A stretch of DNA of 39,327 nt from positions 1 to 39,327 of the IMG/VR virus record IMGVR_UViG_3300021440_000064; one strand, written 5' to 3'. Under the pieces are notes generated by a model. It was not told the DNA's origin. It was given only the letters and a program-made list of their open reading frames with translations, and ran no database searches. This stretch comes from a virus. This document shows positions 1,630 to 39,327 of this stretch, one piece after another. The translations under genes were made by a program, and so were the position numbers. Positions within the stretch are counted from its first letter, which is position 1, and the number at the start of each line of letters is the position of its first letter.

Positions 1630-1635
1630 ATTTTA
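1630..1635 (-). promoter_or_regulatory. Extended -10 (TGCTAAAAT), leaderless start for 1334-1621
   Basis: TAAAAT with TGC in front lies 8 bases before the ATG. It overlaps the last codons of the upstream lysin gene, so this gene can be expressed alone as well as by read-through. Confidence 0.55.
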
Positions 1636-2814
1636 GCACATAGAATCGTTATGCAAAGAAGCTTTTGTTGTCGAAGCTGTCTTCACTGGATAACCCCAAA
1701 ATGTACCTTGTGGCTTTGAAGGATCAATATCAACGTGAACAAAGTTCGCAGTGAATGAAATCCCGATTCGTTTGAATCCAACTTGCAAACAAGCAGAAAC
1801 GATCTTGAAGATATCCGCACCAGTTGACGCTTGAATGTCTACTGCATAGCCCTTTGTATGCGCAGAATCCTTTACACCGCCAACCATTTCATTGCGTTCA
1901 GCACTTCTGAAGCCAGAATTGATCTTGAATGGTATTCCTGCAATGTCGCGAGCCTTGTCGAGCATATCGACTAGTTCTGGTTGCAAGTCCCCGATTGTTC
2001 CTGATTCTCCTGTCTTTTCGGTAGCTTTGAAGTGTTTCCACCCCGCACGTGCGATGTTGATCATGATGTTTGGAACGTCCGCGATTGCAATTGCATCGTA
2101 CAAATATTTTGCTGTAAATTCTGACCACAAGAATGAACCGTCGCCGTTATTTCCCCAGTCCTTTGACCATGAATTGCGATAGTAGAATTCAGTGTCGCCG
2201 TTTGCCTTGTCCTTATACCCGAACAATGCAACGTAGTGACCGCCGTTTGTATCACCTGCCTTGATTGTTTTGCTTGTGATAGTCCCGCACTTCATCGCAA
2301 TACAGATCACACCGTTTGAATGAATAGCTTGTTTCAAGCCGTCCTGTGTGATTTGCGCGAATGCGTAGCCACCGCCTTTGTACATACTAGCAACCTTTTT
2401 AGCTGTAGCCGATACTTTTATTTTTACATATTCAGCGTGTGGAAGATCCGTGTCATTTGGAACATCTGAATCAACTGCGCAACCAGTGTCCGAAGTGACG
2501 ATCTTTGCCACTACACGGGGCTGTGTGCCTTCTGTAGTGATACCGTCAATTGCCTTTGCTAGTGCGTACATGTAACGTGGTGAAAGCAAGGTTTTCTGTT
2601 TTGTTTCTTTGAAGTTCAAGTACATCAATTGAGTTGCGAAAGCATGTCCGACACATGCGCCGAGTGCCTTTTGATTCAAAACTGGAATCATTGAAATATC
2701 AGTTTTGTAACTTTTTGGAAGATCACTTTTGACTGCAAGAGTTGCAACGTCCGCAAGCTTGATGTCACGCTTGTCGGTATCGCTTTTAATAGCACCAGTG
2801 AAATATTTTTTCAT
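1633..2814 (-). CDS. Two-domain lysin: papain-like (C1) peptidase + M15 peptidase
   Basis: The 393-aa product joins two peptidases. Residues about 15-245 show a papain-like C1 fold: Gln48 and catalytic Cys54 in the QKALGACVGHAFA context, His193 in GGHYVALFGY, and Asn214 in RNSWSKDWG, the usual Cys-His-Asn order. Residues about 255-375 look like an M15-type zinc carboxypeptidase/endopeptidase: GFRS near 301, SAHTKGYAVD giving ligands His319 and Asp326, and VHVD giving His360. M15 domains cut peptidoglycan stem peptides and are common in phage endolysins; the papain domain may cut a protein layer or cross-bridge. There is no signal peptide, and it follows the holin by two bases. The pairing is unusual for an endolysin; a virion-associated lysin is an alternative. 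Confidence 0.85.
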   Translation of the reverse strand: MKKYFTGAIKSDTDKRDIKLADVATLAVKSDLPKSYKTDISMIPVLNQKALGACVGHAFATQLMYLNFKETKQKTLLSPRYMYALAKAIDGITTEGTQPRVVAKIVTSDTGCAVDSDVPNDTDLPHAEYVKIKVSATAKKVASMYKGGGYAFAQITQDGLKQAIHSNGVICIAMKCGTITSKTIKAGDTNGGHYVALFGYKDKANGDTEFYYRNSWSKDWGNNGDGSFLWSEFTAKYLYDAIAIADVPNIMINIARAGWKHFKATEKTGESGTIGDLQPELVDMLDKARDIAGIPFKINSGFRSAERNEMVGGVKDSAHTKGYAVDIQASTGADIFKIVSACLQVGFKRIGISFTANFVHVDIDPSKPQGTFWGYPVKTASTTKASLHNDSMC

Positions 2815-3407: not shown

Positions 3408-5537
3408 TTATTTTTGCAAGCGACGGTACTGCGCACCACTGAAAGGGTTTCCGTTTACATCGAGATAATCACCTGCAACAACTGCTTTGAATCCAACCTG
3501 TGTGTTTGTTCCAGTTGGTGTGAATTTTAGTTCACCGTCGAACTGGAATTCAAGTCCTGCAACTACTGGAATAGCTGAATACTGACTGTTCGGATCGTTT
3601 GTTGGTGTCGATAGATTTTCAGAATTATCAATGTTTAGATCTATTGTTGTTGATGATTTTGCAATTCCAACATAAACGCTGTTATCAGTTTTATAAGGAA
3701 GAAGTCCACTTTCACTGATATAGTATTTGTTGCCAGTAACAAGATTAGTGAACCCGTCAACAAGTCCTGAAACCTGAACAGAACCATATGTTCCGTTATT
3801 TATTAAAAGCTTGTTAAAACCTGCGAACTTTCTTCGCCCTGCATCAGTTGTGAAATCCGCAATTGATATAGTCGGCGATATGCTATAGGTTTTGAAGTAG
3901 TTTACTTTTAGTGTTGTTTGGAACCCTTGACTATGAATAAGTCCAAAAGCATTTTGACAACCCTTCCCGTTTTGTACTCCGCGTGTGTAACTACACACAC
4001 CGAATCCGTTTGATGAAGGGTATCTTGATAGAAACATATTCTTCGGGAAGTAGCTAGGTCGTAGTGGTGAAGGTAAGTAGTACCAACATGTGAAACCGTT
4101 TGCACCGTATTGCATAAGTGGGCAATTGAACAACTGTGATCCCCCGCCGTCTGTTGCTTGAACAGTGTTATATATTCTTTTTCCGTCTGTCATTAGAACA
4201 CCAGTATACGCAAAACTAGTAGGATCAATTCCCCAGTCTGCAAAAGTATTAACTCGCACCCATACTCCATTTGACTGACGTTTATATGTTCGTGGTTGAT
4301 CTTCACCATATCCACCCGATAAAGATTTTTGAACCATTATGAATGGTGTATTTTCAAGGAATGACACACTTGAAAAACGTGTCATGTCATAATCATACGA
4401 AGGGTTGTTTTGACCTAGATCAATTGTTTCAAGAGATCCGAAACTTCCAGTTACAGTGTCTAGTCTTTTGAATAAGACTGTGTTATTTGGATATGGCGAT
4501 CCTGTAGATCTTCGTGAACAGATTACACCTGCATACTTTCCGCCAATACAACCAATTGAAGCACCGATTCCGTGAAGCGCGCTTGCAAAATCACTATCGA
4601 TATCATGTGGCGTTCCGAGTGCATTTGTCCAAGTTCCGTTCGTTGTTGAAGTTCCTATTACTGTAGCCTTATAGTTTCCTGCATTATTTGTGTTTTGAAA
4701 AACAACATAATACTTTCCATTGATGAATTCTGAATCCATTGATTGTTCAAAACTGTTTTGGTTAGTCTTCACTTTCCATGTCACATCAGTCCAAGCTACA
4801 ACTTCAGAACTAACAACAAGACCGCCAGCACTTGCTTGTGCCATGCGATGATACATTTTACCGTCGGTAACTCCCATGTTTTTTGCATACGCAAAGAAGA
4901 ATCGTCCTGTTTCTTCATCACAACCCATTGTCCAGTTGCGGTTATTTTGATCCATTACTGCGATACCTGTTGAAACGCGTGCGCTCCATGAAGCAGTACT
5001 GTTCTGAACCTTTCTTGAATAGTGAATAACACCGTTTACTAAAAAGAAAACCCAGTCATACCCGAATAGTGTATAAATTCCTGATCGAGTGTTTGAACGA
5101 CCAGTCGGAAGTGTGTTTCCACCTGTTAATGTTGTAACGGTTTCACCAAGTGAGTTTCCTGAAAGTGTTTCATCTGTTACATATTCGGCAGTTCTGTTGA
5201 CTGCTACTGGCGAAAGTACGGGAATATCTTGACTGGCAAGTTCAGAAATGAAATCACCTGAAGTTGAAGAATTGTTATATACGATAGCACCACCTTCAAC
5301 GTCAATAGCCGATGAAAGTTTAACCTTCGCGACAACATTGTTGATATTAGAATCAGTAATCGAAGTAGCGCCACTAGGTACGGTGATATCAGCTATACGC
5401 AAGAATGTGAATCCTGCACCGATAGCTGTTTGAATAGCTACATCTGATAGTGCGCTTGCACCTGAACCTTGAATCAATTCAATTGTAGCAACGTTTGTTT
5501 TCAGTGTGTTTGGCACTGCTGTAGTATCAGCTTTCAC
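3408..5537 (-). CDS. Tail fibre / receptor-binding protein, C-terminal main part
   Basis: The open frame encodes 709 aa from a GTG, but the frame is really open back to about 5645. The extra codons (GGQAWKII...SGANRVDAI) read as natural protein continuing from the gene at 5534-5833, so this is most likely the bulk of one 808-aa tail protein broken by a one-base frameshift near 5636. The sequence is rich in Gly, Ser, Thr and Asn, with beta-repeat character and many aromatic Y/W/F residues, as in receptor-binding fibres and baseplate proteins. It ends with a compact segment (GFKAVVAGDYLDVNGNPF). The position after the tail hub and before the holin fits a host-recognition protein. Fibre identity is by position and composition. 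Confidence 0.7.
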   Translation of the reverse strand: MKADTTAVPNTLKTNVATIELIQGSGASALSDVAIQTAIGAGFTFLRIADITVPSGATSITDSNINNVVAKVKLSSAIDVEGGAIVYNNSSTSGDFISELASQDIPVLSPVAVNRTAEYVTDETLSGNSLGETVTTLTGGNTLPTGRSNTRSGIYTLFGYDWVFFLVNGVIHYSRKVQNSTASWSARVSTGIAVMDQNNRNWTMGCDEETGRFFFAYAKNMGVTDGKMYHRMAQASAGGLVVSSEVVAWTDVTWKVKTNQNSFEQSMDSEFINGKYYVVFQNTNNAGNYKATVIGTSTTNGTWTNALGTPHDIDSDFASALHGIGASIGCIGGKYAGVICSRRSTGSPYPNNTVLFKRLDTVTGSFGSLETIDLGQNNPSYDYDMTRFSSVSFLENTPFIMVQKSLSGGYGEDQPRTYKRQSNGVWVRVNTFADWGIDPTSFAYTGVLMTDGKRIYNTVQATDGGGSQLFNCPLMQYGANGFTCWYYLPSPLRPSYFPKNMFLSRYPSSNGFGVCSYTRGVQNGKGCQNAFGLIHSQGFQTTLKVNYFKTYSISPTISIADFTTDAGRRKFAGFNKLLINNGTYGSVQVSGLVDGFTNLVTGNKYYISESGLLPYKTDNSVYVGIAKSSTTIDLNIDNSENLSTPTNDPNSQYSAIPVVAGLEFQFDGELKFTPTGTNTQVGFKAVVAGDYLDVNGNPFSGAQYRRLQK

Positions 5538-20221: not shown

Positions 20222-21718
20222 CTACGAGACAAGCAGTTTCCTGTTATTTCCGACTAGTCCGTCAATCACGTTCACACAACCGTCGCACGCATCGTCGTGT
20301 GGCTCTACGCCAAGCCCGATGATCTGTGTCAACAATTCTTCTGCACCCTGTTTAGGAAACAATACGATTCCGCTCTTGATATACGGCGCAACCATGTTCA
20401 AGCGGAACTTCTTATCCTGTGAACTGAATACGTTTACCGCATCAATACCGTTTTTCATGAATACCTGTGTTGCTACCCGTTGGAATTGGTTTCCTTCAAC
20501 GAAGAATCGAACGGGGTTTCGTAGCCGTGCCTTCAATAAGCGGGCATTGCTGACAATTCCGTGGAAGTCTAAGCGCTCATTGACGAAGTTTGCAAGAATC
20601 AGAATTCGTTCTTCGCCGTATTCGTTTTGAACCACCATTGCGGGGATCATAGCCGTACAGTCCGCCGTTTGTTTTTCTGAAATAGCCAAGTCGACACCAA
20701 CTCCCGAACGCAAGAACTTTTTCTGAAGCCATGATTCGTCATAGTACTGGATATCAGTTTCTTTGATGATCTGGTCTTCTTCATTCACGATCTTCAACAA
20801 GAACTCACGCGCCCAAATAACAAGCCCAAGCCCTGCACCTGAAAGCATGATTTCTTGTTTCTTCGCTTCGATTGATTCCCGTGTCGGGTACATTGCACGC
20901 CATGTGACATATCCGTTCGCATCAATAAGCGGGAAGCGTTTCACCTTCACGATATCCTTGCCGTTCTTTTCAAGGTTAGCAAGCAAGCAGTCTTTGTGAA
21001 CTAGGTTTCCGATGATGATCACGCGTGTCAATCCGAGTTCTTCTGGCTTCATACCTGCCAAAACTTCCGCGAAGAACCATTGGCGGGTTTTCTTGCGTTG
21101 CTCCTGTGACTTTGTTGAATCAGTGTTTTCGATATCGTCGCCGACAATAAGATCTGGCTTGTGATCCTTCATGTTGTCATCAGTAAACTTCATACCGCGG
21201 ATATTCTGCCCGCGTGAACGTGCAACAATGAAACCATCACAAAGATTCAACTGTTCTTCTGACCACTTGTGCGACATTTCAACCGATTTCTTTTTCACTA
21301 GAATCCCGAAGTCTTCTTGAAGCTCCTTACTCGATTCAATCATCTTTCGAATGTTCGCAAGGTTACGCTTTGCATCTGAATCAGTAGCCCCGATCATTAC
21401 CGCCAACTTGTGTCGCTTTGTTACGATAGCCCACAACACGAATGCTTCGACAATGGTCGACTTCGCACTACCACGGAAACCAAGAATCGCTATGAACTTC
21501 TGAAGTGATTCAAGGTCGTTGAAAAGTTCTTCATGGAACGAAGCCATTTGAAGCACGAACTTCCCGCGCAAGTAGATCTGGCAAAAAGCCGAAAAGCTAT
21601 CCATTGAAAAAGCCAAGCGGAAGTATTTCGCTGGTTGTGTTTCCTGCTTGCCGTCTTTGGTGATCATTATTCCACCGAATAGGCAAAGGTCGATTTCTTT
21701 TTCAGTGAGTACTTTCAT
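20222..21718 (-). CDS. Terminase large subunit
   Basis: The 498-aa product has a Walker A GFRGSAKST (about residues 80-88) and Walker B LIVGDDIE (190-197), followed by a coupling segment. Its RNase H-like nuclease half shows GVDLAIS around residue 345, FFVEGNQFQR and a terminal DDACDGCVNVIDGL. It pumps DNA into the head through the portal and cuts it. The gene follows the small subunit, separated by an unusual 147-base non-coding stretch with iteron-like repeats. Confidence 0.95.
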   Translation of the reverse strand: MKVLTEKEIDLCLFGGIMITKDGKQETQPAKYFRLAFSMDSFSAFCQIYLRGKFVLQMASFHEELFNDLESLQKFIAILGFRGSAKSTIVEAFVLWAIVTKRHKLAVMIGATDSDAKRNLANIRKMIESSKELQEDFGILVKKKSVEMSHKWSEEQLNLCDGFIVARSRGQNIRGMKFTDDNMKDHKPDLIVGDDIENTDSTKSQEQRKKTRQWFFAEVLAGMKPEELGLTRVIIIGNLVHKDCLLANLEKNGKDIVKVKRFPLIDANGYVTWRAMYPTRESIEAKKQEIMLSGAGLGLVIWAREFLLKIVNEEDQIIKETDIQYYDESWLQKKFLRSGVGVDLAISEKQTADCTAMIPAMVVQNEYGEERILILANFVNERLDFHGIVSNARLLKARLRNPVRFFVEGNQFQRVATQVFMKNGIDAVNVFSSQDKKFRLNMVAPYIKSGIVLFPKQGAEELLTQIIGLGVEPHDDACDGCVNVIDGLVGNNRKLLVS

Positions 21719-21734
21719 AGTTCGTTCGTGTGTT

Positions 21735-21830
21735 GCTAGTTATATATTATTACTTTTACTTTTACTTTTATATTACCTTTATTTTACTATTACCTTTACT
21801 GACATGTGTGACACATGTGAAGCACATGTG
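21735..21830. promoter_or_regulatory. Iteron + AT-trinucleotide module between the terminase genes
   Basis: Three CACATGTG-type sites (21801-21808, 21812-21819, 21823-21830) have centres exactly 11 bp apart. They are followed, on the minus strand, by about 60 bp of TAG/TAA/AAG trinucleotide tract ending at GCTAGT/ACTAGC. The same arrangement occurs inside the replication gene at 37758-37843. Candidates are a second replication origin, or a terminase (pac/cos-like) recognition region because it lies between the terminase genes. Confidence 0.6.
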
Positions 21831-21865: not shown

Positions 21866-22471
21866 TTATGTTTCAAAAAAGTCCGAAATGATTTCTTTTT
21901 CTTCATCATTAGTTTCTGGTAAAAAATCAACATGTTCTTCGCTAGGAATGTAGTCATCTGGCGCTGAAACTGGTGTCGTAGCTTCGACATCAATCACGTT
22001 GGCATCAAGGTCGCCGACATATTCACCCTGCTTTTTATCAACGATAAAGTTCGCACCACCGTTGCGAATTTCTTCACGAATTTCAAGGATCTTCTTCAAT
22101 TTCTCGTCTTCTGATTCATCATCATCGAGCGAAAGATTGACCTGCTGTTTAGCTTTTCCAATAGCCTGTGTTAGTGCTAGTTCCATGAATGCGAATGCTT
22201 GCCGTGGTGATAGTGAATCATCAAGTGCATAATCGAACACGCGTTTTACTACCGCCTGAAGTTTTGACATTTCAATTGGTTGACCGTTTTCATCAAATTC
22301 AATATGCAAGCGTTGTGCTTCTTCAAGAAACCAACGTCGCATTTGTTTTGAGTTTGCAAGATTCTTCGGTCTTCCTTTTGGATTACCACATACACCGCTT
22401 TTGAACGGAATTAGGTTTGCAGTGTTATCAACCTTCTTTTTCCCTTCTCTGTTTTTGTCACTGTTTTTCAT
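21866..22471 (-). CDS. Terminase small subunit
   Basis: The 201-aa product starts with MKNSDKNREGKKKVDN; a frame open further upstream adds a hydrophobic extension that I consider untranslated. Near residues 25-38 it has the GVCGNPKGRPKNLANSK element common in phage small terminases or DUF5681-like proteins, then a helical DNA-binding/oligomerisation part (EEAQRLHIEF..., SPRQAFAFMELALTQAIGKAK), and an acidic C-terminus. It recognises the packaging site and regulates the large subunit. It is the first gene after the late promoter and leader terminator. Confidence 0.8.
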   Translation of the reverse strand: MKNSDKNREGKKKVDNTANLIPFKSGVCGNPKGRPKNLANSKQMRRWFLEEAQRLHIEFDENGQPIEMSKLQAVVKRVFDYALDDSLSPRQAFAFMELALTQAIGKAKQQVNLSLDDDESEDEKLKKILEIREEIRNGGANFIVDKKQGEYVGDLDANVIDVEATTPVSAPDDYIPSEEHVDFLPETNDEEKEIISDFFET

Positions 22472-22496
22472 ACTGTTATAGTTTATCATGAAAACG

Positions 22497-22530
22497 AAAA
22501 AAGCCACATAGCGTTAGCAATGTGACTTAA
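22497..22530 (-). terminator. Terminator at the end of the late leader
   Basis: The minus-strand stem GUCACAU/AUGUGGC (one G-U pair) has a 10-base loop containing CTAACGC and is followed by six Us. It lies between the late promoter and the small terminase gene. The loop is complementary to GCGTTAG earlier in the leader. Confidence 0.8.
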
Positions 22531-25103: not shown

Positions 25104-25277
25104 CTATTTATCAGCCGAAACTGACATCATAAGTGCTATTACCCACGCGATGAATGTCCACCCAAGGAAAATGTTCAGAATCATTATTGCTGTTCTGTTC
25201 ACTTTCTTTTTGTGGAACGCGATGATTGTTGGCAAAAAATATAAACCGATTGCCATTAGTACATACGTTAAAATCAT
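25104..25277 (-). CDS. Superinfection immunity-like membrane peptide (Imm family)
   Basis: The 57-aa product has two hydrophobic segments with the family pattern seen in T4 Imm-type superinfection immunity proteins: YFLPTIIAFHKKKVN in the first half, then AIMILNIFLGWTFIAW, ending with VIALMMS. In T4, Imm blocks DNA entry from a second infecting phage. The frame begins with the ATG of an ATGA overlap with the NinG stop and ends three bases before the next gene, so it is translated within the operon. It is under 60 residues and easily missed by length cut-offs. Confidence 0.75.
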   Translation of the reverse strand: MILTYVLMAIGLYFLPTIIAFHKKKVNRTAIMILNIFLGWTFIAWVIALMMSVSADK

Positions 25278-25699
25278 AATTGTTTTTGTTGTAGAAATTC
25301 TGCTACCTTATTTTTATAGTATTGTATCTTTTCTTGATACCACAATGAATCGACTTTCATTGTTTCCTTTGATCGAACCTTGATTGCTTTGATTCGTTCT
25401 TCGCCTATCTTGTCGACAAGTGCGAATTCGAAGTCGCGCATCATTAGTTTTTGATCAATCCTTCCATTACACCCGTTGCATTGCGCGTGGCAATTGTCTT
25501 CATCGAAACGTGTCGCAAGTAGCGAACGTGACATGAAGTGACCGTTGTTGATTCCACGCATTCCGCTTTTCCAAAAGTGGCGCGCTCCGCAAATGATGCA
25601 ACTACAATACCCGTAGTGATCAGAATCGCGAAGGCGAATATATTCGGAAAAAACTTCATCAAGCTTTTCTTTTAATTTTTGTTGATCGCTTTTTGCCAT
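25274..25699 (-). CDS. ninG: NinG/Rap-like recombination endonuclease
   Basis: The 141-aa product matches lambda NinG/Rap in order and motifs: an N-terminal LKEKLDEVFSEYIRLRDSD, a zinc site CSCIICGARHF, then NNGHFMSRSLLATRFDEDNCHAQCNGCNGR. Rap is a structure-specific nuclease that cuts recombination intermediates. It belongs with the RecT, YqaJ and SSB genes upstream. The gene ends in TGA within ATGA at the start of the Imm-like gene. Confidence 0.88.
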   Translation of the reverse strand: MAKSDQQKLKEKLDEVFSEYIRLRDSDHYGYCSCIICGARHFWKSGMRGINNGHFMSRSLLATRFDEDNCHAQCNGCNGRIDQKLMMRDFEFALVDKIGEERIKAIKVRSKETMKVDSLWYQEKIQYYKNKVAEFLQQKQL

Positions 25700-28521: not shown

Positions 28522-28983
28522 CTAGAAGGGTATGTCCGCAGGATCAATATCTTCATCTGGATATTCAATGACATCGTAGCCTGATTGTTCCGACTGTGGT
28601 TTTGAATAGTCCTGACTGTAAGCACTTTCTTCTTGTGGCGCACTTTGGCGATCATTCTTTGAACCGACGAACTGGAATGAATCCATTACAACTTCAGTTC
28701 GATATCGCTTCTTGCCGTCTTCGCCGTCCCAACTGCGTGTTTTCATTCGCCCTTCGATGTAGATTGGTGAACCTTTACCGAACCACTTGTGAACGGTTTC
28801 AGCAGTTTTTCCATAGGCGACTACGTTGTGGAATTCTGATTCTTCTTGCTTTTGCCCGTCCTTATCCTTCCATACACGATTCGTTGCGATTGAAAAGTTT
28901 GCGACGTGCATTCCGCTAGGAAGTGCTTTCAATTCGATTACGTTTGTGATGTGACCTGCAACGGTTGCTTTGTTGATATTCAT
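28522..28983 (-). CDS. ssb: Single-stranded DNA-binding protein
   Basis: The 153-aa product has a typical bacterial/phage SSB OB-fold: MNINKATVAGHITNVIELKALPSGMHVANFSIATNRVWKDK, FHNVVAYGKTAETVHKWFGKGSPIYIEGRMKTRSW, VVMDSFQFV. A flexible Gln/Ser/Pro linker then leads to an acidic tip EDIDPADIPF that normally binds partner proteins. It coats single strands during replication and recombination; RecT and YqaJ are encoded upstream. Confidence 0.95.
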   Translation of the reverse strand: MNINKATVAGHITNVIELKALPSGMHVANFSIATNRVWKDKDGQKQEESEFHNVVAYGKTAETVHKWFGKGSPIYIEGRMKTRSWDGEDGKKRYRTEVVMDSFQFVGSKNDRQSAPQEESAYSQDYSKPQSEQSGYDVIEYPDEDIDPADIPF

Positions 28984-28986
28984 AGA

Positions 28987-29178
28987 TTAGTAAGTTTTTA
29001 CTGTTATGTTTTCCGATAATTTTACGACTGATTTTGGTTGGTTGATTTGTGGAACTTGCGTTCCGCGCAATAGCTTTGGTTTGATTCCATTGTTCTTGCA
29101 AAATTTTCTGCGATCTTTTCGATTCATCTTTTGAAGAAAGTCGATTGTAAGTTCGCGTGTTTTCTTGTTTTCGTCCAT
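28987..29178 (-). CDS. Small hypothetical protein in recombination operon
   Basis: The 63-aa product starts MDENKKTREL; I chose this over an upstream ATG that overlaps YqaJ more. It is basic (KMNRKDRRKFCKNNGIKPKLL) and may bind DNA or a partner. It lies between YqaJ and SSB, 4 and 3 bases away. Not recognised. Confidence 0.5.
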   Translation of the reverse strand: MDENKKTRELTIDFLQKMNRKDRRKFCKNNGIKPKLLRGTQVPQINQPKSVVKLSENITVKTY

Positions 29179-29182
29179 ATGA

Positions 29183-29896
29183 CTATAGTCCCATGAAGTA
29201 ATTTTCAAGCGCTTTTTGTTTTTCGTAAGTGTCCAAAATAGCGGGCATGATTTCTTCGATTATTTGTTCGACTTCTGATCTTGTAACTGTGATGATAAGG
29301 TAGTTGTTTTCTGGTATCGCGGGATCGTATACGAAGAAGTCTAGTTCTTCGGCTGTGTCGATCACAAGGAAGGCATCAACACATTGCCAGTAATAACCAG
29401 TATCAAGGCGTTTGATCTTATCAATCCCGTATTGATGTTGTTCACAATGGAACTCATACTTTTCAGTCAACGGGTTTTTGATAAACATTCCGAGTTCTTC
29501 AACATATGAAGCAAAGACTTTCGATGTAGGGTGTTTCATTTCAAGCACCTTTCTGATCAATGTTTTGTCTTTGTTGTATATGATACCGTCTGGTGAATAT
29601 CCGAACTGCGGAAGCTTTGTGTTTGAAACTCCACCGCAAGTGACGGCTTGTTCGCCTGTGACTTCGTTGTACTTGATCAATCCGCTTTCTTCCTGAACAG
29701 TTCCCCAAGTCATAGGGTTTGAATCATGATCAACTGCGACTTGTTTTTCAACGAATGCGAATATCTTTTCCCTGAATCCTGAACCGCGAACCTTTGGTGT
29801 GTATTCTTCGAACTTCGAACCTGTGATCAATGGATTGCGCCATTCTTCCCACTCGTTCGAACGCTGTTCGAATTGGTGAATAATTAGGTGATCCAT
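29183..29896 (-). CDS. YqaJ-family viral exonuclease
   Basis: The 237-aa product shows the YqaJ/lambda-exonuclease-like PD-(D/E)XK nuclease pattern: RSNEWEEWRNPLITGS at the N-terminus, TWGTVQEESGLIKYNEVTG, GYSPDGIIY (Asp in the active site) and VLEMKHPTSKVF (the E-x-K). It trims dsDNA ends to give 3' tails for RecT. Its stop lies four bases before the next gene, and RecT begins right upstream. Confidence 0.9.
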   Translation of the reverse strand: MDHLIIHQFEQRSNEWEEWRNPLITGSKFEEYTPKVRGSGFREKIFAFVEKQVAVDHDSNPMTWGTVQEESGLIKYNEVTGEQAVTCGGVSNTKLPQFGYSPDGIIYNKDKTLIRKVLEMKHPTSKVFASYVEELGMFIKNPLTEKYEFHCEQHQYGIDKIKRLDTGYYWQCVDAFLVIDTAEELDFFVYDPAIPENNYLIITVTRSEVEQIIEEIMPAILDTYEKQKALENYFMGL

Positions 29897-29897
29897 A

Positions 29898-30794
29898 CTA
29901 GGCTTTGATTTCTTCTGCGTTCACATCAATGACGGGTTGTGTGGTTGGTTGTGTTGGTGGTACTTCTGGCGCAACTGGATCTTTTGGCGCTTCTGGTGGT
30001 GTTGGATCTTTCGGTTTGTTGGCTTCTTCGAACTTCGCCTTCATTTCGTTTTTTGCTTCCTGAATTTTCTCATTGTGCATCAACTCTTTGCCGATCTTCC
30101 CGAAGAATTCGCGAAGTTCTTCACCGCTGTTTGTTGCCTTGATTCGTTCGATTGTGATTTGAACTAGATCTGGTTTAACGTCCTGAATCTTTTCAGTGAA
30201 GTTTTTTGTTTCAACAATTCGTGAACCTTCTTCTTCAACGTACATGTTCGCCATTTCTTCTGGACAAGCCTTTCGAAGCGCGTGCATTTCTGCAACCTTT
30301 GCGATCATTGTTCGTGGTTTCTTATCCCACATTGATTCAGTATATTTTCCGTCCCAAGTTTTGCCCGCCTGATAGTATTCATCGAAGTAAACTTCAGCGA
30401 TATACTCCCCGACTGTTCCACTTGATAGCTGTCTTTTGATTGTCATTGAACATGATTCAATCTTTTCGCCATTCATTTTATATGAAGGCTCTGAAACGTA
30501 GCATACACCTGAACGCATTCCGATCTTGCGAGCGTAACCGATTGAAGTCATAAGTGAATATGAATGAACCTTCCCACGATATAGCACTGCATAAATATCC
30601 TTTTGCATGAAGTTTTGTAAGTTGAACCCTGTCATATAGGCTTCAACAATAGCTTGCTTCATTAGTTCTTCCGAGAAATCTTTGAACACTGATTTCAAAA
30701 GTGATGCTTTGACTTCTGGTGTTGCGATTTCGCGCAAGCCTTCAGTGATAGCGTTTGAAGAATTACTTCTTTGTAAAACGGGTTTGTTTTCCAT
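29898..30794 (-). CDS. recT: RecT/Bet-type single-strand annealing protein
   Basis: The 298-aa product has the annealing-protein core: SEELMKQAIVEAYMTGFNLQNFMQKDIYAVLYRGK, SYSLMTSIGYARKIGMRSG, and the hallmark MWDKKPRTMIAKVAEMHALRKACPEEMANMY. After about residue 230 it has a Pro/Glu/Ala-rich low-complexity tail (PKDPTPPEAPKDPVAPEVPPTQ...). With the YqaJ exonuclease one base downstream it forms a Red-like annealing system. Its start overlaps the HTH gene by 32 bases. Confidence 0.9.
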   Translation of the reverse strand: MENKPVLQRSNSSNAITEGLREIATPEVKASLLKSVFKDFSEELMKQAIVEAYMTGFNLQNFMQKDIYAVLYRGKVHSYSLMTSIGYARKIGMRSGVCYVSEPSYKMNGEKIESCSMTIKRQLSSGTVGEYIAEVYFDEYYQAGKTWDGKYTESMWDKKPRTMIAKVAEMHALRKACPEEMANMYVEEEGSRIVETKNFTEKIQDVKPDLVQITIERIKATNSGEELREFFGKIGKELMHNEKIQEAKNEMKAKFEEANKPKDPTPPEAPKDPVAPEVPPTQPTTQPVIDVNAEEIKA

Positions 30795-31038: not shown

Positions 31039-31066
31039 ATACTATACTATATTTTCAAAAAGTAAA
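31039..31066 (-). promoter_or_regulatory. Early promoter for the recombination operon
   Basis: TTTACT (31066-31061), a 16-base spacer and TAGTAT, with several overlapping TATAGT alternatives. It carries the same 26-base upstream element as the promoter at 35975-36002 and lies in the end of the gene at 31042-31386. Confidence 0.6.
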
Positions 31067-31386
31067 GTGTAAAGAATATCTATACAAGATGGCTTCTGTT
31101 CGTCAAGACTCTTGTTGATCTTCCATTTGAAGTTGATTACAGTCCCACATAGTTGATCATTGAAGTGAACATGATCATCTTTTATGTAGCACATGAACAT
31201 TGTTTTGTTTGAATCAATTCCCCTGAATGTATAGGCTACTAGTTCGGTTACTTGTTCAAGCCTGATTTGATTGTTCACCTGATCACCTTTGATATTCCTG
31301 TATAGGTTAGTAATTGCATCGACCTTTGAAACGAATATTTTCGCTTCAGAACTGATTGCATTATCGTTTTGAATAGATTTGTTCAT
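31042..31386 (-). CDS. Hypothetical early protein
   Basis: The 114-aa product is alpha/beta with no membrane helix. Not recognised. Its last ten codons overlap the early promoter repeat, and its start overlaps the previous gene by 26 bases. It is the last gene before the recombination operon. Confidence 0.6.
   Translation of the reverse strand: MNKSIQNDNAISSEAKIFVSKVDAITNLYRNIKGDQVNNQIRLEQVTELVAYTFRGIDSNKTMFMCYIKDDHVHFNDQLCGTVINFKWKINKSLDEQKPSCIDILYTLLFENIV
31052..31077. repeat. 26-bp direct repeat, early promoter element, copy 1
   Basis: The 26 bases (minus strand ATTCTTTACACTTTAC then TTTTTGAAAA) match 35988-36013 exactly. The copy doubles as the 3' end of a coding sequence (DILYTLLFEN) and as the -35 region of a promoter. 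Confidence 0.85.
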
Positions 31387-35918: not shown

Positions 35919-35974
35919 ACCTTGAAAGATTGCTAGTAGTAAAGTTGTGAAGTCGGGTTACTTTCACATAAATT

Positions 35975-36002
35975 AGTATATACCCGTTTTTCAAAAAGTA
36001 AA
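35975..36002 (-). promoter_or_regulatory. Early promoter, TTTACT-N16-TATACT
   Basis: TTTACT (36002-35997) and TATACT (35980-35975) are 16 bases apart. It shares GGTATATACTAA with the late promoter and the 26-base upstream element with the promoter at 31039-31066. Confidence 0.7.
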
Positions 36003-36013
36003 GTGTAAAGAAT
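35988..36013. repeat. 26-bp direct repeat, early promoter element, copy 2
   Basis: This is identical to 31052-31077. Here it is non-coding and covers the -35 and the region just upstream of it. Confidence 0.85.
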
Positions 36014-36020
36014 CTATAAC

Positions 36021-36029
36021 TGTGGATAA
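36021..36029. promoter_or_regulatory. Consensus DnaA box
   Basis: TTATCCACA on the minus strand is a perfect DnaA box. It lies next to the early promoter and the 26-bp repeat in the longest non-coding gap of the window. It may allow host DnaA to control transcription or replication. Another perfect match lies inside a tail gene near 6744, so chance cannot be excluded. Confidence 0.5.
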
Positions 36030-36036
36030 CTCAAAA

Positions 36037-36066
36037 CAAAAAAGCACCAGTGATGATGCTCTTTTG
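36037..36066 (-). terminator. Intrinsic terminator after replication operon
   Basis: The minus-strand stem AGCATCA/TGGTGCT (one G-U pair) with a 4-base loop is followed by six Us. Confidence 0.8.
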
Positions 36067-36128
36067 CCGTAACCCGTTATTACTACCCTTTGCAAGGCTT
36101 CCACTATAATATCATTTTTTATGAAGTA

Positions 36129-37253: not shown

Positions 37254-38213
37254 CTACATGATTATTTTGCTTTTGTTATTCGACAACTGCGCTTTTTTAA
37301 CCTGTGCTATCCAACGAACAATTTTCCTTTGCAATTCATTCGGCGTGTACGCAGTCGGTATGTAGTGAAGCTTTTCTGAATTCACGTCGATGTTATTCGT
37401 GTACGGTAGCATTTCAACAATTTGCATTATGCTTTCGAACCCGTGTTCTTCGATAAGGCTTGCAACTGCCTTTCTTTGCGTAGTGTTCGCGTAGTAGCGC
37501 TTGTTGATAGGATCAACGGCTTCAAACGCCTTGATTACCGCCCCGATCTGGTTGTTCAGTGTCATTGTGCCACTATCTACGGTTTCGGGCTGTATTGGCG
37601 ATTCTGTGGCTTCTGGAGCGATGTTTGAAGTGTCTTTCGATTCACTTTTCGCCTTCTTTGCCTTTTTCTTCGCTTTTGGCTCGTTGATGTCTTCTGAAAC
37701 GGCTATTTCTGGCTTTTCTGGTGGTTTAGTTTCCTGCGCCTGATCTTTTCCTTGTTCGCTAGTATTATTATTATTTACGTTATATTTACTATTACTTTTT
37801 ATATTACTATTACGCAGTGTGTCGCACATGCGTTGCACATGTGCAATGTATTCTTGAATGTCTTCTGGTAATAGTTCAATAATTTCATTAGGAAGCATTT
37901 GAATTTCACGCTTGATAAACTTCCATGTGTCACCACCTTTCGAAGGTTTTACATATGAATTTTCGGTAATGATGATGTAGCCTAGAACGATAGTGATCAA
38001 CTTCTTTTCCTGAAGCTCTTGAAATGCTTCATTGATTTCTTCGGTCGTCATTAACGTATAGGCGCGGATCATTTGCATGTTCTTTTTTAGAACTGGCAAT
38101 GTGTCACGGTCGGGGCTTGTAAGAATGTGGAAGTACAAAAATCTTGATTCGCGATTTAATTCGGATATAACTTCGTCCTTCCAAAAGTCGGTTTTGATAA
38201 GTGCTGTTTTCAT
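37254..38213 (-). CDS. Replication initiator / replisome organizer
   Basis: The 319-aa product has an N-terminal winged-helix part (KTDFWKDEVISELNRESRFLYFHILTSPDRDTLPVLKKNM..., TTEEINEAFQELQEKKLITI) typical of phage replisome organizers. A low-complexity linker (about 130-220, Asn- then Pro/Lys/Glu-rich) follows, then a C-terminal domain (KAFEAVDPINKRYYANTTQRKAVASLIEEHG ... TAYTPNELQRKIVRW). The Asn-rich linker is encoded by an origin-like tract with three CACATGTG-type sites, recalling lambda O. No helicase, primase or polymerase gene was seen, so host replication proteins are probably recruited. Confidence 0.75.
   Translation of the reverse strand: MKTALIKTDFWKDEVISELNRESRFLYFHILTSPDRDTLPVLKKNMQMIRAYTLMTTEEINEAFQELQEKKLITIVLGYIIITENSYVKPSKGGDTWKFIKREIQMLPNEIIELLPEDIQEYIAHVQRMCDTLRNSNIKSNSKYNVNNNNTSEQGKDQAQETKPPEKPEIAVSEDINEPKAKKKAKKAKSESKDTSNIAPEATESPIQPETVDSGTMTLNNQIGAVIKAFEAVDPINKRYYANTTQRKAVASLIEEHGFESIMQIVEMLPYTNNIDVNSEKLHYIPTAYTPNELQRKIVRWIAQVKKAQLSNNKSKIIM
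37758..37846. promoter_or_regulatory. Candidate replication origin inside the initiator gene
   Basis: Sites centred 11 bp apart: GCAGTGTG (37814-37821), CACATGCG (37825-37832) and CACATGTG (37836-37843), the last within a 14-bp perfect palindrome TTGCACATGTGCAA. On the minus strand they are followed by a 50-bp AT tract of TAA/TAG trinucleotides ending in ACTAGC. This resembles an iteron array plus unwinding element. Confidence 0.65.
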
Positions 38214-38228
38214 GTTTTAACGGGTAGG

Positions 38229-38288
38229 TTTTGAACATAATGCACGTTGTGGGAATTGTCGTAACCACTTCATGCACTATGTTCAAAA
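38229..38288. repeat. Inverted repeat in the initiator leader
   Basis: Arms 38229-38244 and 38273-38288 (TTTTGAACATAATGCA and its complement) match at 15 of 16 positions, with 28 bases between. It lies between the promoter and the initiator ATG. It may be an operator, or an RNA hairpin in the leader. Confidence 0.7.
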
Positions 38289-38324: not shown

Positions 38325-38354
38325 AGTATCGCACATGTGTGACCACTTGTGCAA
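38325..38354 (-). promoter_or_regulatory. Initiator promoter with CACATGTG operators
   Basis: TTGCAC, an 18-base spacer and GATACT form a plausible promoter. CACATGTG (38332-38339) lies in the spacer, and a CACTTG/CAAGTG palindrome overlaps the -35. The sites match the iterons in the initiator gene, suggesting autoregulation. Confidence 0.5.
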
Positions 38355-38360
38355 GTGTAC

Positions 38361-38399
38361 AAAAAAAGAAGGCTCGCGAAACGATGTTCGAAAGCCTTC
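38361..38399 (-). terminator. Intrinsic terminator after the 48-aa gene
   Basis: The minus-strand stem GAAGGCT/AGCCTTC, with an internal CGAA/TTCG pairing, is followed by seven Us. Confidence 0.85.
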
Positions 38400-39092: not shown

Positions 39093-39302
39093 GATTATAC
39101 TTTCACAATATTCAAGTTTTTCTGGTTGCGTTTTCATTTGAAGATTCACACATCGCTTGTATAGCATGACCTGCGCATCAGTTATAACGTCCGCTTTCTT
39201 CCCCATAATAACGCCGACATATAGAACGATACCGATCAAAATGATTCCAAGAAATGCTATTGCGACTATATACAAGTGCTTCACTCGAATTGATTGATCC
39301 AT
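39081..39302 (-). CDS. Small membrane protein (complete copy)
   Basis: The 73-aa product has one N-terminal transmembrane helix (HLYIVAIAFLGIILIGIVLYVGVIMG) and a short soluble tail with two Cys. It would lie six bases after the lysozyme-like gene once the ends are joined, so it may take part in lysis (for example spanin-like or anti-holin). That role is guesswork. Confidence 0.7.
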   Translation of the reverse strand: MDQSIRVKHLYIVAIAFLGIILIGIVLYVGVIMGKKADVITDAQVMLYKRCVNLQMKTQPEKLEYCESIINAR

Positions 39303-39327
39303 AGAATTTTATTGTATCACGGTTTCT
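39181..39327. repeat. Terminal direct overlap (right copy)
   Basis: This is the right-hand copy of bases 1-147, with three single-base differences near its outer edge. It covers the 5' part of a small membrane-protein gene and the final codons of the lysozyme-like gene, both complete only when the ends are joined. Confidence 0.9.

Follow-up and report, generated by a model that had tools for sequence, protein, structure and literature searches.

Two related elements, one in the initiator gene and one between terS and terL, as candidate paired replication origins of a siphophage

Genes and features of the window

We analyzed all 39,327 bases of IMG/VR record IMGVR_UViG_3300021440_000064, and this whole stretch is referred to here as the window. 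The ends of the record repeat each other directly (positions 4 to 147 and 39184 to 39327; 143 of 144 nt identical, with one mismatch). Therefore, the genome is most likely complete and circularly assembled, with a length of about 39.2 kb. Portal, major head protein, tape measure, and TerL genes were recognized, and the phage is a siphophage. It also looks virulent, because no integrase was recognized among the genes of the window. The minus strand holds nearly all recognized genes. An SNF2-type helicase is also among them, and no phage DnaB, DnaC, or loader gene was recognized in the window. The features that matter for the analysis are as follows:

20222 to 21718, minus strand: terL, terminase large subunit (phrog_38, E 3e-66)
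21735 to 21799, minus strand: AT tract of element E1, which ranks second in instability among the 50-bp stretches of the genome, with seven GTAA boxes at spacings of 6, 6, 11, 11, 6, and 6; ends in ACTAGC, like that of E2
21801 to 21830, no strand: array of E1, with three CACATGTG sites at 21801, 21812, and 21823 (1, 0, and 0 mismatches) at an exact 11-bp spacing, in the noncoding terS-terL gap
21866 to 22507, minus strand: probable terS (DUF5681), a role assigned from the match to PF18932 (E 2.6e-11) and from its position adjoining terL
25274 to 25699, minus strand: NinG, of the Rap-type junction endonuclease family (PF05766, E 9e-16)
28522 to 30794, minus strand: recombination module, with SSB (28522 to 28983), YqaJ exonuclease (29183 to 29896), and RecT (29898 to 30794)
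37254 to 38213, minus strand: rep, encoding a 319-amino-acid DnaD-like or replisome-organizer-type initiator with an Asn-rich linker (phrog_1701, phrog_1408, and phrog_3171)
37757 to 37813, minus strand: AT tract of element E2, which ranks first in instability among the 50-bp stretches of the genome, with five GTAA boxes at spacings of 6, 12, 6, and 11
37814 to 37846, no strand: array of E2, with sites at 37836 (CACATGTG), 37825 (CACATGCG), and 37814 (degenerate) at an 11-bp spacing
38328 to 38361, no strand: element E3, with CACATGTG at 38332 and CACTTGTG at 38344, 12 bp apart, upstream of rep; no AT tract adjoins it

Some other properties of the genome were recorded in their own right. The gene at 1633 to 2814 (minus strand) encodes a papain-like C1 peptidase fused to an M15 peptidase, which is an unusual endolysin-like pairing. 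A near-identical 33-nt repeat (94%, E 4e-8) is found at 31052 to 31084, at the end of gene 31042-31386, and at 35988 to 36018, in an intergenic region; these are possibly shared terminator hairpins. The start codon is preceded by T (TATG) at 48 of 59 predicted starts, compared to 25% of all ATG on the same strand, and only 2 of the 59 have a Shine-Dalgarno-like core. Seven TATAAT boxes end 6 to 9 nt before a start, and an eighth ends at 14 nt. Together, these properties suggest that leaderless transcripts are widespread in this phage and its host.

Two elements of the same architecture

A preliminary description had placed an origin-like array inside the Asn-rich linker of a replication initiator, and both the location and the nature of the gene were borne out. 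The profile matches of Rep are to a DnaD-like helicase loader (phrog_1701, E 6e-7) and to replication initiation proteins (phrog_1408 and phrog_3171). Its predicted structure, whole or as the N-terminal domain, had a pLDDT of 45 to 50, which is too low for a structure search. The array had been described as three sites 11 bp apart. This is correct for CACATGTG at 37836 and CACATGCG at 37825, but the third site at 37814 (CAGTGTGT) has 4 mismatches to CACATGTG in 8 positions, and only its half-site CACA, on the minus strand, keeps the 11-bp register. The site at 37836 does sit within a 14-bp perfect palindrome, TTGCACATGTGCAA (37833 to 37846), as had been noted, and this is one of only two such palindromes in the window. 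A tract of roughly 55 bp, which encodes the Asn-rich linker (SNIKSNSKYNVNNNN), adjoins the sites. It had been reported as 50 bp of TAA/TAG trinucleotides, but GTAA boxes 6 or 11 to 12 nt apart describe it better.

A second element, E1 (21735 to 21830), has a cleaner array; it lies 16 kb away and had been missed. It is contained in the 147-bp noncoding gap between terS and terL, so the 11-bp spacing of E2 is retained in a second element of the same genome. The genome contains four exact copies of CACATGTG, compared to an expected 0.69; two are in E1, and E2 and E3 (the latter just upstream of rep) have one each. Three-site arrays with a total of 5 mismatches or fewer were absent from all 60 simulated genomes. 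Allowing up to 6 mismatches gave a single array (at 6) across the 60, whereas arrays with totals of 1 and of 5 are both present in the real genome. These best two arrays are E1 and E2, and the AT tract is on the same side of each. We also considered E3 as a third 11-bp array and rejected it, because its spacing is 12 bp and the AT tract is absent. E3 is probably an operator or an extra binding site. Between the E3 sites and the start of rep is an inverted repeat (38229 to 38288; 24 nt, 83% complementary, 12-nt loop; TTTTGAACATAATGCAC...) that could be an attenuator or operator.

The alignment of E1 and E2 extends over ~100 nt, from the array across the AT tract to the terminal ACTAGC, and has about 73% identity and a score of 92.5. 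Scores did not exceed 72 in 1000 dinucleotide shuffles, and the next unrelated genome window scored 57.5. Relative to the genes, both elements have the same orientation, array first and tract second, and the word TAATAGTAA is found in the two tracts only and on the minus strand only. When rep was compared to its own genome by blastn, nucleotides 371 to 461, in the linker, matched 21731 to 21830 in the same orientation (E 6e-5). The only stronger matches of a gene to elsewhere in the window were the terminal repeat and the 33-nt repeat. For AT-rich DNA, such an E value is modest, and so the pairing leans on the shuffles and on a recoding control. For the latter, synonymous versions of E2 that follow the codon usage of the phage were compared to E1. 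None of 20,000 recodings matched E1 as well as E2 does (36 did for the array part and none for the tract part). When the synonymous recodings were AT-matched, the whole element reached this similarity to E1 in 0 of 5000, and the tract did so once in 5000. Therefore, E2 has been shaped at the DNA level, beyond its protein code.

These controls bear on whether E2 might be an artifact of chance or coding, in which Asn codons produce the AT-rich tract and the palindrome is coincidental. An Asn-rich linker does force AT-rich codons, and a 14-bp palindrome arose in 118 of the 20,000 synonymous recodings. However, the noncoding E1 shares the E2 architecture, which no recoding matched, and the simulated genomes had no array with 5 or fewer mismatches. 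We consider this explanation to be extremely improbable. There is good support for E2 being an origin-like element within rep, and more than the preliminary description could claim, because there is an independent noncoding copy with the same architecture.

Duplex instability, GTAA boxes, and candidate binding proteins

We calculated duplex instability from nearest-neighbor energies. With windows of 40 bp or of 50 bp, the two lowest stabilities in the genome fall in the E2 and E1 tracts, which had been chosen via their arrays and not by instability. These tracts are also the genome's two densest clusters of GTAA boxes on one strand; the next cluster has three. Shuffled tracts reached the observed clustering in 0 and 1 of 20,000 trials. 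The E1 tract has a period of 6 (0.63 match), not 3 (0.37). Because E1 is noncoding, the trinucleotide appearance of E2 is partly a product of codons. GC skew along the genome gave no clear origin signal.

The trinucleotides had been likened to the DnaA-trio element of bacterial origins. There is a resemblance to the basal unwinding element of oriC with DnaA-trios, in that short words are repeated on one strand beside binding sites, but the comparison did not hold up. Trios in H. pylori have 5'-CTA-3' running outward from the DnaA box, and unwinding was abolished when this polarity was flipped (PMC8235120). Here it is 5'-TAG/TAA-3' that reads away from the array, so the polarity is reversed, and the periods are 6 and 11 to 12 instead of 3 (PMC8235120). 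No trios of the correct polarity (3'-GAT-5') next to DnaA boxes were found at E2. The same description was right that the adjacent sites are not DnaA boxes, because there are none beside E2. Genome-wide, DnaA boxes are at chance frequency (47, with 49.5 expected), and we rejected DnaA as the protein that binds the arrays. One perfect DnaA-box word, TTATCCACA, is at 36021 to 36029 (minus strand) in the 210-bp intergenic region 35919-36128. More tentatively, the GTAA boxes might be a single-strand code that the initiator reads in order to open and hold one strand. If so, they would be a DnaA-independent counterpart of the DnaA-trio, in a paired-origin phage with an initiator that has no significant BLAST similarity to gp38.

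The arrays could instead be transcriptional operators for a phage regulator, or for Rep acting only as a repressor, controlling for example the terL promoter at E1 and rep at E3. E1 is just upstream of terL, E3 is in the rep 5' region where it adjoins a terminator-like hairpin, and palindromes spaced by 11 bp are typical of cooperative repressors. However, E2 is far inside a coding region; the element has no promoter match, and no gene starts nearby. At E1, neither array nor tract was matched in a promoter scan, which fits sigma-70-type promoters only. Operators would also leave unexplained the extreme instability of both tracts, their matching GTAA boxes, and their shared sequence. Therefore, we regard a purely transcriptional role as unlikely.

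Because E1 is located between terS and terL, the elements might be packaging (pac or cos) sites bound by the small terminase. In many phages, terS proteins bind repeats close to the genes that encode them, and E1 adjoins terS. Relatives were sought to see whether the elements are conserved. Searches of viral contigs by Rep, TerL, or portal, and of genome contigs by Rep, gave no useful close relatives; two candidates (L002, with Rep at 24%, and L014) were too distant. Distant TerL relatives were found at 80 loci, with about 34% identity in those examined, and the upstream gaps of 18 such loci had no array. In those with intact terS-terL junctions, terS directly abuts terL, so there is neither a gap nor an array. 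A packaging site also fails to account for a second copy inside rep, which has no packaging role, and in SPP1, pac is an element distinct from the ori sites (PMC6316719). We consider packaging to be a very unlikely function. The sequence of this array is not widespread, because the exact pattern CACATGTGNNNCACATGTG gave only five matches in 2.9 million viral contigs, none of them (0/5) beside a comparable AT tract. A general search for palindrome arrays across 1.6 Mb of DNA turned up none as good as E1.

Candidate paired origins and comparison with known systems

Our favored explanation, based on these sequence comparisons, is that E1 and E2 are probably paired replication origins. Rep would bind both and melt the AT tract, theta replication would start at the rep copy, and the terS-terL copy would serve as a second origin or a fork barrier. 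The likelihoods that we attach to this explanation and to its rivals are not exclusive of one another.

It had been suggested that the initiator itself binds the E2 sites, and this is plausible. We envisage that Rep would bind as a cooperative oligomer to the palindromic CACATGTG sites, which are one helical turn (11 bp) apart and on one helix face. The bound oligomer might destabilize the adjoining AT tract, possibly gripping one strand via the GTAA boxes, and at E2, Rep would then recruit or load the host helicase. Being inside rep, E2 would be the early, oriL-like theta origin. E1 would be an oriR-like second origin and/or protein-bound fork barrier, where it might promote a switch to recombination-dependent concatemer synthesis, as proposed for SPP1. 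The phage exonuclease, RecT, and SSB could carry out this concatemer replication. E3, which is upstream of rep and has no AT tract, would be a probable autoregulatory site.

Alternatively, E1 only or E2 only might be an origin, with the other copy being a decoy, a titration or partition-like site, or a remnant duplicated by recombination. The degenerate third site of E2 could be read in this way, and SPP1 oriR has itself been discussed mainly as a fork barrier (PMC3485210). However, even at about 73% identity, both copies have kept the array, tract, GTAA boxes, and orientation, and the constraint on E2 exceeds that of the protein it encodes. Therefore, both copies seem to be under selection. 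A single origin is a real possibility that overlaps with paired origins, although we think it rather improbable.

We examined whether such a pair could be recovered blind, by self-BLAST of each initiator gene against its own genome. In the SPP1-like phage 049ML003, linker nucleotides 373 to 441 matched intergenic positions 4617 to 4687 in the same orientation (E 9e-15). Ray17, an SPP1-like Bacillus phage, also had a linker-to-intergenic self-match in the same orientation (E 2e-11). Ray17 positions 40675 to 40777, near the right end, appear to hold a second SPP1-type origin copy that is apparently unannotated. Seven further phages, whose initiators are of the gp38, lambda O, or DnaD type, had no comparable linker-to-intergenic match; the best match among them, in Fpv11 (E 2e-4), connected a coding stretch that is not in the linker with a second coding region. 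Within this work, the paired layout was otherwise met only in SPP1-like Bacillus phages. Applied to every phage genome, this self-comparison test could reveal more paired origins.

The preliminary description had pointed to lambda O as a parallel. The lambda origin has iterated binding sites and an AT-rich tract inside the gene O linker, as E2 does in rep, and so the likeness is fair as far as location goes. However, lambda has a single origin, with iterons of about 18 bp, whereas there are two elements here. No second copy was found by self-comparison in the lambdoid phage Huey, and we rejected a lambda O-type single origin because the homologous E1 exists. P1 provides another origin within an initiator gene. 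Its lytic oriL is in repL, where an essential AT-rich region is sensitive to synonymous changes (PMC9948254). However, its initiator is unrelated, and neither a second copy nor a palindrome array is described there.

SPP1 is a closer model. Its oriL is located in gene 38, and oriR, 12 to 13 kb away, occupies a late-region gap; each consists of repeats and an AT-rich DUE, and gp38 (G38P) binds both (PMC6316719, PMC3485210). Replication begins at oriL, and gp38 on oriR has been proposed to stall the fork, leading to recombination-dependent concatemer synthesis (PMC3485210). There are differences. The sites here are palindromic CACATGTG at 11 bp instead of GACAC-type direct repeats, the second copy is between terS and terL instead of after the head gene, and the window has no recognized phage DnaB or loader gene. 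BLAST similarity between Rep and gp38 is not significant (E 3.4), and both match phrog_1701 but in largely different parts. Therefore, the parallel is one of layout, not of sequence. In both phages, one element is in the Asn-rich linker of the initiator (nucleotides 371 to 461 here and 373 to 441 in 049ML003), and a similar one is in a late-region intergenic gap, in the same orientation and 12 to 16 kb away. Read in the direction of the genes, the repeats of both copies precede the AT-rich DNA, and genes for an exonuclease, a single-stranded DNA-annealing protein, and SSB are nearby (PMC6316719).

Natural copies in coding and noncoding DNA would allow the base-level needs of the spacing and the GTAA boxes to be tested free of protein constraint. 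To our knowledge, the SPP1 origin pair, with one origin in the initiator gene and the other in the late region, is the main described case. A second case, in an unrelated-looking phage and with different sites, suggests that this might be a recurring layout for the switch from circle to concatemer replication.
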